Below, in pieces: positions 4,465 through 64,000 of a DNA stretch of 64,000 nt; the stretch's first letter is position 1; every line of letters begins with the position of its first letter. The notes under the pieces were generated by a model, which searched no databases, had not been told where the DNA came from, and was given only the letters and a program-made list of their open reading frames with translations. The position numbers and the translations under genes are program-made. This stretch comes from Gloeomargaritales cyanobacterium VI4D9 (GTDB lineage: Bacteria > Cyanobacteriota > Cyanobacteriia > Gloeomargaritales > Gloeomargaritaceae): positions 434,001 to 498,000 of the forward strand of contig OV696605.1 of NCBI GenBank assembly GCA_927797885.1. The letters run 5' to 3'.

Positions 4465-4586
4465 TATAGCAATCCTACTTGATTTACGTTAGCTTGCGTG
4501 CCGTAGGCATACAAGAATTTTCCAGAACCAAGGACGGGGGCGGTGCCCCTGCGACCCCTATTCTATTTTCATTTAGGATTGCCATG
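4465..4586 (+). repeat. R1 element, copy b (long variant)
   Basis: TATAGCAATCCTACTTGATT at the left, TTTAGGATTGCCATGG at the right, core GGGGGCGGTGCCCC. It contains the TTGCGTGCCGTAGGCATAC insert shared with copies at 12194 (inverted) and 39205. It sits just downstream of yhaV. Confidence 0.85.
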
Positions 4587-7427: not shown

Positions 7428-7544
7428 TTTCAGAGACCAGCCTATGACTTTTTAAATTTTGACAACTTTCGGGCTAGAACCTTAGTCGGATTCTCTGATT
7501 AGAAAAACTTATCACCCTAAATCCAGGAAAGTTATATGAAACAT
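7428..7544. other. intergenic sequence, nothing recognised
   Basis: About 117 AT-rich bases between R6a and R3i. No ORF, tRNA or hairpin of note was seen. Confidence 0.3.
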
Positions 7545-7664
7545 GGACACCTCTATTAATTCACGGCTATTGCGAATGACCCCTGGGTTATTGATAATTG
7601 CCAACGAAAGAATGGGGCTTCCGAGCCTTTCATGTAAGTACAAAAATCAATAAATAGAGGTTCC
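7545..7664 (+). repeat. R3 element, copy i, with 3-bp target duplication
   Basis: 120 bp from GGACACCTCTATTAATTC to CAATAAATAGAGGTTCC. CAT is present immediately before and after, a likely 3-bp duplication. The termini match those of the IS5-like element at 13168-14349; the interior is non-coding. Confidence 0.8.
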
Positions 7665-7876
7665 CATATGGGTACAAGACTGTTGTATGCAATCACGACA
7701 CTTGATTAATGCTACACTTTAGTCATTACCAAAACCTGTTGGCAAACGCGAGTTTAGCCATTATCGTGGAATCAGGGTTTTGAGAAATCCCTCCGACAAT
7801 GCCCTCCTGGAGGCTTGCAAAAGCTTAAACAGTTGTTTGACCGGGATCATCAAGGTATGTTTTCTAAACGGAAGCG

Positions 7877-39204: not shown

Positions 39205-39345
39205 TATAGCAATCCTACTTGATTTACATTAGCTTGCGTGCCGTAGGCATACAAAAATTTTTCAGAACCATACACCGCAGGTGCTTCTTTTACGGGGGCG
39301 GTGCCCCTGCGACCCTCTGTTCCATTCTCATTTAGGATTGCTATA
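39205..39345 (+). repeat. R1 element, copy i (longest variant)
   Basis: 141 bp, TATAGCAATCCTACTTGATT to TTTAGGATTGCTATA. It carries both inserts: TTGCGTGCCGTAGGCATAC (as in copy b) and ACCGCAGGTGCTTCTTT (as in copy a). Confidence 0.85.
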
Positions 39346-48701: not shown

Positions 48702-48762
48702 ATAGCCATCTTAGATATCTGTAGAACCAAGTACGGGGCGGTGCCCTGCGACCCTTTATATT
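48702..48762 (+). repeat. R1 element, copy k1 (3' truncated)
   Basis: CATAGCCATCTTAGATATC, AGAACCAAGTACGGGGCGG, TGCCCTGCGACCCTTTA. The right terminus is missing. Confidence 0.6.
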
Positions 48763-48822
48763 CTGAGAACCTTTATTTGTTTGAACCAACTAAAAATCCC
48801 ATCGTGGAAATACCCCTATGAC

Positions 48823-48885
48823 CCAGAACCAAGTACGGGGCGGTGCCCTGCGACCCTCTGTTCCATTCTCATTTAGGATTGCTAT
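48823..48885 (+). repeat. R1 element, copy k2 (5' truncated)
   Basis: CAGAACCAAGTACGGGGCGG then CCCTGCGACCCTCTG and the full right end TTTAGGATTGCTATA. The core is the same as k1, 110 bp away: a direct duplication. Confidence 0.65.
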
Positions 48886-50232: not shown

Positions 50233-50333
50233 TATAGCAATCCTAAATAAGAATGGAACAGGGGTCGCAGGGGCACCGCCCCCGTCCCTGGTTCTGGGAA
50301 ATTTGTGTTCGTTAATCAAATAGGATTGCTATA
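50233..50333 (-). repeat. R1 element, copy m (inverted, full length)
   Basis: TATAGCAATCCTAAATAAG to AATAGGATTGCTATA, 101 bp, nearly identical (inverted) to the copy at 52260. It joins the methyltransferase relic to an R3 body at TATTTATTGATT, the same R3 position as in copy e but in the opposite R1 orientation. Confidence 0.88.
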
Positions 50334-50562: not shown

Positions 50563-51966
50563 ATGACAAAAGCTGTTCGCAAAGAAACGGATAGTCTTGG
50601 TGAAATTGAGGTTCCAGCCGATAAACTGTGGGGCGCTCAGACCCAGCGTTCCCTTGAATATTTCAGTATCGGCAGGGATTTGATGCCTCAAGAGATGATC
50701 AGTGCCTACGCTATGGTTAAAAAAGCGGCGGCAATCGCAAACCATAAGAGTGGTCGCCTTGCGGATCAACCTTTTCATCTGATTGTCCAAGCCTGTGATG
50801 AAATCCTCGCTGGTCAGCACCAGGATATGTTTCCGCTCCATGTGTGGATGTCGGGCAGTGGCACGCAGTTCAATATGAATGTGAATGAGGTGATCGCCAA
50901 CCGTTGTTGCCAGCTCGCCGGTACGCCCCTGGGGAGCAAAACGCCGGTTCACCCCAACGACCATGTGAATATGGGGCAGTCCACCAATGATTCATTTCCC
51001 ACGGCGATGTACATTGCGGCGGCGGTCGGGGTCAAGCAACGGCTGATTCCGGCGGTACAAGCTCTGCACGATGCCATCACCGCTCAAGCCGAAGCGTGGC
51101 AGGATATTATTAAAATCGGGCGTACCCATCTGCAGGATGCCACGCCGCTGACCCTGGGGCAGGAATGGTCCGGGTATGCGGGGCTGTTGGCGGATGACCT
51201 GGAACGCATTGAGTCAGCCTTGAGCGGGGTGTATCGCCTCGCCCTGGGGGGGACGGCGGTGGGGACGGGGATCAATGCGGCACCGGGTTTTGCTGAGTGC
51301 GCCGCCGCTGAGATTGCCAAGCTCACCGGGTTGCCCTTTGTCAGTGCCCCCAATAAGTTTACGGTTCAGGGTTCCCACGATGCCCTGGTGCAGCTTTCGG
51401 GGACGTTACGCACCCTGGCGGTGTCCTTGTACAAAATTGCCAACGACATACGTTTGTTGTCCTGTGGTCCCCGGGCGGGGTTCGCCGAGCTGATCATTCC
51501 TGCCAACGAGCCTGGTTCTTCCATCATGCCGGGCAAGGTCAATCCGACCCAGGCGGAAGCTCTGACCATGATCGCCGTACAGGTAATGGCTAACGATGTG
51601 GCGGTGAGCTTTGGGGGTGCGGGTGGGCATCTGGAGATGAATGTTTACAAACCGTTGATGATTTTCAATATCATGCATTCGATTACAATCTTGTCGGATG
51701 GTTGCACCAACTTCCGTAGGTTTCTCATGGAAGGCACCCAGCCCAATTGCCAGAAAATTGCGGAATATGTGCAACGTTCCCTCATGCTGGTAACAGCGTT
51801 GGTGCCGGTGATTGGCTATGACAAAGCCTCCCAAATTGCTCACTATGCTATGGAGCATGACCTGACCTTGAAGGAAGCCGCCTTACAGCTTGGCTTTGTC
51901 ACCGAGGAAGTCTTTGACCGGGTGGTGAACCCAGGGAAAATGGTTCAGCCCTATGTGGCCAAGTAA
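50563..51966 (+). CDS. fumC: class II fumarate hydratase
   Basis: 467 aa, iron-independent fumarase (fumarate to malate). The superfamily signature [19 protein letters not shown] (about residues 315-333) is intact; the substrate loops [20 protein letters not shown] and [20 protein letters not shown] match FumC rather than aspartase or argininosuccinate lyase. Length is typical. AGCATAAGGA before the ATG is the ribosome-binding site; the promoter must lie close to repeat relics upstream. Confidence 0.95.
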
Positions 51967-52024: not shown

Positions 52025-52142
52025 ATACAGTCTTTTGAGTGGTTATGGGATACAGTTGAACCCCACTTGCTGTAGGTCAATTGTGGTAAGCCTTTAGGAT
52101 AATCGAGTCTTTTTGTATCCTTTAATTGACAAATAGACTGTA
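52025..52142 (+). repeat. R2 element, copy F (best preserved)
   Basis: ATACAGTCTTTTGAGTGG and GGGATACAGTTGAACCCCA at the left; TTTTTGTATCCTTTAATTGA and AAATAGACTGTA at the right. 118 bp. It abuts R4 copy c. Confidence 0.85.
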
Positions 52143-52259: not shown

Positions 52260-52360
52260 TATAGCAATCCTATTTGATTAACGAACACAAATTTCCCAGA
52301 ACCAGGGACGGGGGCGGTGCCCCTGCGACCCCTGTTCCATTCTTATTTAGGATTGCTATA
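52260..52360 (+). repeat. R1 element, copy n (consensus-like)
   Basis: 101 bp with perfect 13-bp inverted termini TATAGCAATCCTA / TAGGATTGCTATA and core GGGGGCGGTGCCCC. Used here as the type copy of the family. Confidence 0.92.
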
Positions 52361-52362
52361 TG

Positions 52363-52493
52363 GGCACCTCTATTTATTTACACCCATTGAAGTTTATTTC
52401 GCTGAAATGCCCATATCAATGGCTACGCCACGCAGGCTATCGAAAATCAGAGACGGGGGCTACGCCCCTGCGACCTATTTTTAGAAGCGCCCC
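52363..52493 (+). repeat. R6 element, copy b (best preserved)
   Basis: GGCACCTCTATTTATTTACA at the left, ATTTTTAGAAGCGCCCC at the right, core GGGGGCTACGCCCC and the module GGCTACGCCACGCAGGCTAT. 131 bp. Confidence 0.7.
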
Positions 52494-56993: not shown

Positions 56994-57080
56994 AAAATCA
57001 ATCCTAAATATCGAATATGGGTCGTAGGGGCACCACCCCCATCCTTAGTTCTAGGAAATTTCTGTTCGTTAATCAGATAG
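56994..57080 (-). repeat. R1 element, copy q (decayed)
   Basis: AATCAATCCTAAATATCG, GGGTCGTAGGGGCACCACCC, AATTTCTGTTCGTTAATCAG. Inverted, starting 8 bp after the tRNA; the right terminus was replaced by the R3 start. Confidence 0.65.
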
Positions 57081-61965: not shown

Positions 61966-62070
61966 CATAGCTATCCCAAAAGACTCATGTGAATAACGAA
62001 ATTACTCAGAACCAAGGACGGGGGCGGTGCCCCTGCAACCCCTATTCCATTCTTATTCAGGATTGCTATA
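61966..62070 (+). repeat. R1 element, copy r
   Basis: CATAGCTATCCCAAAAG to TTCAGGATTGCTATA, with AACCAAGGACGGGGGCGG and TGCCCCTGCAACCCC inside. The right half is identical to copy s 320 bp away. Confidence 0.8.
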
Positions 62071-62291
62071 TCTTTGTAATGTTCAAAAAAGAGCAATGAG
62101 GGCTGTCAGGGAGGTAGGTTGTTCCACATCTCCAGGCAAACCCCTAGAAGTAACCAGGTGTGAACCATAGGGTTAGACATTACTCAAATGTCTATAAGAT
62201 AAGGATTCCCAGGAATTAAACCCCTCGTTCTACTGAGAGATTCAGAAAGCCTACCTTATGTTATGTAATGATACCCACTCCGCCAACAACG
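62071..62291. other. unexplained 220-bp segment between two R1 copies
   Basis: Contains GTGAACCATAGGGTTAGACA and AAACCCCTCGTTCTACTGAG. No ORF of note; could be decayed intron or IS 3' sequence. Not identified. Confidence 0.3.
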
Positions 62292-62392
62292 TATAGCAAT
62301 CCTACTTGATTAGTGAACAGAGATTCCCCAGAACCAAGGACGGGGGCGGTGCCCCTGCAACCCCTATTCCATTCTTATTCAGGATTGCTATA
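62292..62392 (+). repeat. R1 element, copy s
   Basis: TATAGCAATCCTACTTGATT to TTCAGGATTGCTATA, 101 bp, core GGGGGCGGTGCCCC. Variant CTGCAACCCC shared with copy r. Confidence 0.88.
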
Positions 62393-63545: not shown

Positions 63546-63601
63546 CGATTGGAATTTAGAGTAGGAGCAACAGTCCCAGGGATGATGTAATCCTTAGACT
63601 T

Positions 63602-63965
63602 GGTTCTTCCCCTAATCTCTGTTGGCTAATCCGGTGGGATGATTACTGATTCTGAGCGGTCACAGGGGTGCAACCCCCGTAGTTGGTTCTTCCCCTAATC
63701 TCTGTTGGCTAATCCGGTGGGATGATTACTGATTCTGAGCGGTCGCAGGGGTGCAACCCCCGTAGTTGGTTCTTCCCCATATCTCCTGGCTAATCCGGTG
63801 GGACGATTACTGATTCTGAGCGGTCGCAGGGGTGCAACCCCCGTAGTTGGTTCTTCCCCATATCTCCTGGCTAATCCGGTGGGACGATTACTGATTCTGA
63901 GCGGTCGCAGGGGTGCAACCCCCGTAGTTGGTTCTTCCCCATATCTCCTGGCTAATCCGGTGGGA
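63602..63965 (+). repeat. tandem repeat of 81-83 bp, four copies plus part
   Basis: Units begin GGTTCTTCCCC at 63602, 63685, 63768, 63849 and 63930 (periods 83, 83, 81, 81). Each contains GGTCGCAGGGGTGCAACCCC, an R1/R6-type hairpin core. The first two units differ from the last in CTAATCTCTGTTGG versus CATATCTCCTGG. Close to identical copies imply recent expansion. Confidence 0.92.
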
Positions 63966-64000
63966 TTGGGATAGTACGAAACAAATACGAAATAATTATC

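Follow-up and report, generated by a model that had tools for sequence, protein, structure and literature searches.

A 33-bp hairpin core common to cyanobacterial mini-transposons whose ends are unrelated

Introduction

The nearest precedent for the elements described here appears to be the BOX repeat of Streptococcus. In S. suis, the same boxB is found between outer modules of two kinds, boxA/C and boxE/F (PMC3049150). As far as they are described in that source, BOX elements resemble ours in being short modular mobile repeats, in having an internal module that folds largely alone, and in forming tandem arrays (PMC3049150). The BOX-type layout, in which the same internal module lies between different outer modules and in tandem, was also found in this study. 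Our elements differ from BOX in that their arms have unrelated ends, one pair of which is common to an IS5-type element, and no orientation rule is described in the parts of the BOX source used here (PMC3049150). The likeness proposed is one of layout and working, and we claim no membership.

Cyanobacterial MITEs such as Nezha are likewise short, noncoding, bounded by TIRs, present in high copy number, and recently mobile (cited in PMC10969869). The description of Nezha-type elements, in the parts of that source drawn on, is without an internal hairpin common to elements with unrelated termini (PMC10969869). REP and REPIN sequences resemble the core in occurring as hundreds of intergenic GC-rich hairpins (PMC3116915, PMC3733652), and they are defined by a tag, GTAG or CGTC, that adjoins the stem on one side (PMC3733652). 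No GTAG was present at either foot of the core stem, where the bases preceding GGGGG were variable except for C. None of the RAYT candidates was flanked by cores on both sides; each of the two Y1 loci (3 kb each) had one core, on one side only and 0.8 to 1.5 kb off. The R' and R'' core motifs of integron attC sites were not obvious on inspection by eye.

Here, in each of two separate cyanobacterial families, mini-transposons whose ends are unrelated have one small hairpin module in common, and its neighboring copies follow a strong one-direction rule. These findings make it testable how modular mini-transposons such as BOX gain and exchange modules.

Results and Discussion

The core cassette and its copies

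The window, i.e., the whole stretch of 64,000 nt analyzed, covers positions 434001-498000 of its contig and had been predicted to carry a GC-rich hairpin in several element families. All four of the hairpin 14-mers cited in that prediction are present in the window, and only the first lies within 52300-52330, the interval originally given. This is GGGGGCGGTGCCCC, at positions 52310-52323 of the plus strand within R1 (52260-52360). The others are the R6b hairpin GGGGGCTACGCCCC (52455-52468, plus strand), the tandem-array hairpin GGGGGTTGCACCCC (four occurrences on the minus strand, 63665-63923), and the R1q hairpin GGGGGTGGTGCCCC (a single minus-strand occurrence, 57027-57040). The features of the window are as follows.

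48722..48861, plus strand: two short-stem cores (GGGGCGGTGCCC), 102 bp apart and co-oriented; the second has an R6 left arm and an R1 right arm
50257..50296, minus strand: core within a second R1 copy, which is 100% identical
52260..52360, plus strand: R1 MITE, TIR TATAGCAATCCTA / TAGGATTGCTATA; the element proper is 97 bp, with TA on both sides
52298..52330, plus strand: R1 core cassette, 33 bp, AGAACCAGGGACGGGGGCGGTGCCCCTGCGACC
52310..52323, plus strand: hairpin of the R1 core, GGGGGCGGTGCCCC
52362..52492, plus strand: R6b, adjoining R1 in the same orientation, TIR GGGCACCTCTA / TAGAAGCGCCC; its ends match those of an IS5-type element
52443..52475, plus strand: R6b core cassette, hairpin GGGGGCTACGCCCC; its left half is degenerate (AAATCAGAGAC)
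57014..57053, minus strand: R1q, a degenerate R1 core, hairpin GGGGGTGGTGCCCC
62007..62368, plus strand: two R1-type cores, 322 bp apart and co-oriented
63600..63966, minus strand: tandem array of an 81-bp unit (4.5 units) with four cores GGGGGTTGCACCCC

The bare pattern GGGGGnnnnnCCCC occurs 19 times in the window versus 5.7 times (standard deviation, 3.5) in shuffles. The excess is about threefold and was reached by 2 of 100 shuffles; the bare hairpin is thus only moderately above chance. Decisive for the reality of the hairpin family is the longer pattern GGGGGCGGTGCCCCTGCGACC, which, with up to three mismatches, had 389 matches in the genome versus none for the reversed control. Alignment of copies delineated a conserved unit of 33 bp, AGAACCA-nnnn-CGGGGGnnnnnCCCCTGCGACC. 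This unit is wider than originally predicted and takes in AGAACCA before the hairpin and TGCGACC after it, both of which had been missed.

About 280 close copies of the 33-bp unit are present in the window's own genome (G000; 3.16 Mb, a single contig). A profile search covered 864 kb of this genome, with 175 cores recovered, and 400 kb each of genome G003 (94 cores) and of G004, a congener of 3,049,282 bp (86 cores). The conclusions below refer to the 864 kb of the own genome and to 400 to 500 kb each of G003 and G004. Seven of the 355 cores in these samples were located inside called genes (quick gene calls), and the core had no match in Rfam.

R1 and R6 as carriers of the core

R1 is 97 bp long and has both TIRs (13-bp inverted ends, TA included) and a target duplication (TA), as a MITE should. 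At empty sites in the own genome, G003, and G004, the net difference is exactly 99 bp, with one TA. The copy at 52260-52360 is one of 8 identical copies genome-wide, so R1 moved recently; 40 near copies or fragments were also detected. No autonomous parent of R1 was found in the sampled sequence. The IS630 elements of the own genome were rejected as parents on the grounds that their ends differ, and a 1.2-kb ORF between R1 ends proved to be another IS inserted in R1.

R6 has the ends AGGGCACCTCTA. The same ends bound an IS5-type element of 1.2 kb (DDE_Tnp_1 plus DUF772) that has no core, and R6 in this way shows the ends in common with an autonomous element that are typical of MITEs. A core-less MITE of 123 bp (7544-7666) has R6 ends as well.

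One core between several pairs of arms

The 33-bp cassette was found in R1, R6a, R6b, several tandem arrays with different units (81, 87, 102, and 106 bp), and a third element of another cyanobacterial family. These elements, together with chimeras, bear out the original prediction of the same core behind different termini, as a cassette moving between families. Movement of the core by itself was not seen; at the cleanly resolved empty sites, whole elements move (see below). Chimeras of the form R1-left/core/R6-right numbered 4, 10, and 3 in the own genome, G003, and G004, respectively, and those of the form R6-left/core/R1-right numbered 4, 5, and 3; arms were assigned by fuzzy end-motif matching, in which single calls can err, and many of the chimeras are plain by eye. 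At locus L097 of G003, R1L-core-R6R lies beside R6L-core-R1R, and at locus L094 the order is R6L-core-R1R.R1L-core-R1R.R1L-core-R6R. Both loci give the impression that the core was the point of entry for a circular or tandem unit, and target duplications are not clear there by eye.

A search of 388 genomes of the class (up to 2 mismatches) detected 132 to 281 copies in four genomes of the window's genus, none in two others, and one copy in another, a range that makes this single genus suitable for studying how the core is gained and spreads. Outside the genus, copies were limited to two genomes from one genus of another family (10 and 23 copies) and to one single match with 2 mismatches elsewhere. 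The cores of UBA8156 (DMPD01) have R6b-like arms, and those of SM2_1_8 (an Oscillatoriales cyanobacterium, JAAUUG01) have the arms of the third element, with ends TATAGTCATTTT and AACAGCTATA. Such patchiness suggests that the core was either transferred horizontally or lost repeatedly.

Orientation of neighboring cores

Neighboring cores nearly always point in the same direction, a rule that is a new observation of this study. In three genomes, 97 of the 99 pairs of cores less than 300 bp apart were co-oriented, unlike REPs, which often form inverted pairs (97:2 direct to inverted for the core). The ratio of same to opposite orientations was 25:4 at 300 to 600 bp, 32:25 at 600 to 1,500 bp, and 95:106 at 1.5 to 5 kb. 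Within 300 bp, ratios of 14:2 and 6:1 were obtained for two further genomes, G005 (CALHCP01) and SM2_1_8, respectively, at loci chosen by their cores. Two controls at 10 to 600 bp gave 27:33 (core versus an IS630-type MITE) and 8:10 (core versus another core-less repeat). An unexpected bias of 23:6 was observed between the core and the core-less 123-bp MITE at 10 to 300 bp.

Three simple causes of the rule were rejected. Tandem duplication is not its sole cause, since isolated pairs with unlike arms still gave 38:4 (19:1 for R1 versus R6; within 600 bp). Orientation set by transcription is excluded by the 49 sense versus 65 antisense gaps (quick gene calls), and orientation set by replication is excluded by the 95:106 ratio of neighbors 1.5 to 5 kb apart and by the distribution over the genome strands (189/200).

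Proposed arm exchange through the core

With a probability of about 0.55, we interpret the core as a central module common to several MITE-type elements, whose arms have been swapped through co-oriented cores in a layout comparable to that of boxB. In such a scheme, transposases would recognize the terminal repeats only, and whole elements would move. Movement of this kind by end-specific transposases is evident for R1 from its empty sites and is suggested for R6 by a few empty sites and by its common ends. Two co-directional cores could then recombine or template-switch with each other, as they have 33 bp of homology and enclose a hairpin at which replication may stall. Exchange from core to core would delete, duplicate, or swap arms and so yield chimeras, tandem arrays, and co-oriented clusters; inverted core pairs would either not be made by it or be lost. 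The hairpin would be kept in the source lineages that found families, with resident copies drifting like the rest of the element.

We infer arm exchange from the chimeras, the arrays, and loci L097 and L094 of G003. The one-direction rule fits either polarity-preserving recombination or template switching between cores or a loss of inverted pairs. Some observations count against the exchange model: 33 bp is short for homologous recombination, loss of inverted pairs could by itself produce the whole orientation rule, and there are the 23:6 bias of the 123-bp MITE near cores and the lack of an autonomous R1 parent in the sampled sequence. No orthologous before-and-after pair that catches an arm exchange was seen in the samples of the own genome, G003, and G004.

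Conservation of the hairpin

The hairpin might instead have a function at the RNA or DNA level for which its structure is selected (a protein site, an mRNA hairpin, or a termination signal), and this would account for covariation and cross-family conservation. We consider this explanation rather unlikely. The original prediction described a kept stem, a variable loop, and a closing pair that switches between C:G, T:A, and T:G. Variants with changed loops do still fold, and a stem of 5 to 7 bp is kept while the loop and closing pair vary, which speaks for this explanation. C:G and T:A are family-level states of the closing pair, and G:C, absent from that prediction, is a further one; T:G arose in this window by one mutation in one degenerate copy and represents no family there.

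The accompanying claim that covariation implies selection on the folded strand was for the most part not supported. Among 233 distinct R1-class copies, no compensatory double change was found at the four G:C pairs of the stem (GGGG/CCCC) or at the closing pair, and single changes occurred on both sides of every stem pair. Two outer pairs had three doubles each, with only two cells, at C:G, forming standard pairs. Across 11 family representatives, which were picked by the analyst and include two variants rather than large families, one of seven pairs covaried, in two lineages, and slid controls scored alike at -3 and -2. Base-by-base covariation driven by selection on the fold thus has little to support it. 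What does speak for retention of the hairpin is the foldability kept with changed loops and a two-sided shortening of the stem. Apart from this shortening, the closing pair (C:G, T:A, or G:C) is all that differs from family to family. The stem is G5/C4 in 161 copies and G4/C3 in 25, with one-sided variants in 10, over eight arm contexts. The excess of two-sided over one-sided changes (25 versus 10) is a better argument for retention of the stem, with the reservation that common ancestry could cut the count to a few events.

In 86 full-length R1 copies, private changes were as frequent in the hairpin as in the arms and the spacer (about 2% per site), which speaks against a structure under selection. 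Between R1 subfamilies, variation was lower in the hairpin and TGCGACC (2 to 3%) than in the arms (10 to 15%), which speaks for a kept structure. The structure is likely retained in family-founding lineages rather than policed in each resident copy. Whole R1 folds far better than shuffles (z scores of -5.7 and -4.1 on its two strands), but this good fold is mostly the pairing of the TIRs. A large G004/G005 subfamily no longer has the G.T pair. No intrinsic terminator was called at the R1 core, which also lacks an Rfam match, and a weak minus-strand terminator call was obtained at R6b (52470-52448). Next to co-directional genes, the 49:65 gaps likewise show no sense/antisense bias. The two-sided stem change and the cross-family conservation could mean that the core itself serves some function, one that the exchange model does not cover. 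Synteny with G003 around the window is largely lost, and the own genome and G003 have only 2 R1/R6 copies in common, which gives no power for measuring constraint. At the gene at 50563-51966, G003 is 93% identical, with almost no gene order common with the window there (versus G003 1.98-2.08 Mb).

Possible insertion of the core by itself

In Nostoc, Elhai et al. reportedly described (in 2008) SDRs, tiny hairpin repeats of 21 to 27 nt that lie inside minitransposons, show compensatory changes, and insert on their own. The core is, by this account, likewise a hairpin repeat inside minitransposons, and it could be an independently mobile tiny repeat of the same sort that was inserted into several MITEs. 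Its 33-bp boundaries fixed across families, the unrelated arms in another cyanobacterial family, and the presence of other 20- to 23-nt inserts inside R1 copies agree with this idea, which we nevertheless regard as quite improbable. Twenty-seven candidate empty sites that lack the core and keep both flanks were identified. The cleanly resolved ones correspond to a whole R1 or R6, the rest are larger or irregular differences, and insertion of the core alone into preexisting sequence was seen at none of the 27, a limited sample. Core-less copies inside R1 and R6 look like deletions or degenerate copies, not preinsertion states, and the left-core-right order and the orientation of the core are constant in every family. 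At locus L096 of G003, the core GGGGGCGGTGCCCCTGC has been deleted exactly between flanking GAC repeats; short-repeat deletion therefore does happen at cores. Whole elements are what moves, and the core seems to be the site at which their arms are exchanged.

We give a slim chance to the folded core being a dedicated recombination or copying site, where an enzyme of the host or of an element would act on the single-stranded hairpin and join elements or their circles core to core in one polarity only, with arms exchanged between unrelated mini-transposons and arrays unidirectional as the outcome. It is scarcely probable that the apparent covariation reflects not selection but quasipalindrome-templated mutation, in which one hairpin arm is copied onto the other during replication; such copying would explain coordinated two-sided changes without intermediates and would suit a core prone to short-repeat deletion, but one-sided mutations are common and uncorrected in resident copies.

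Other elements and short inserts

Several further repeats were observed in and around the carrier elements. An IS with a DDE_Tnp_1 transposase and the ends CAGAAGTGTTGAA..TTCAACACTTGTG lies inside R1 copies (L042, minus strand from 10473; L059, 17980-19300). The core-less 123-bp MITE had 43 matches in the sampled own genome and none in the G003 and G004 samples. Another MITE, at 52026-52142, has the ends TACAGTC..GACTGTA and is apparently related to the IS630-type elements of the own genome.

A hairpin-like insert of 23 nt, TTAGCTTGCGTGCCGTAGGCATA, at 4489-4511, is found in a subset of R1 copies within their left arm and is a better candidate for an SDR than the core. R6b contains a related form (GGCTACGCCACGCAGGCTATC) near 52420-52440, in which a pair is swapped and the loop unchanged (TGCCGTAGGCA versus TGGCGTAGCCA). 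Many R1 and R6 copies have a second insert, of about 21 nt (TACACCGCAGGTGCTTCTTTT, at 39271-39291), which separates the AGAACCA of their core from its ACGGGGG.
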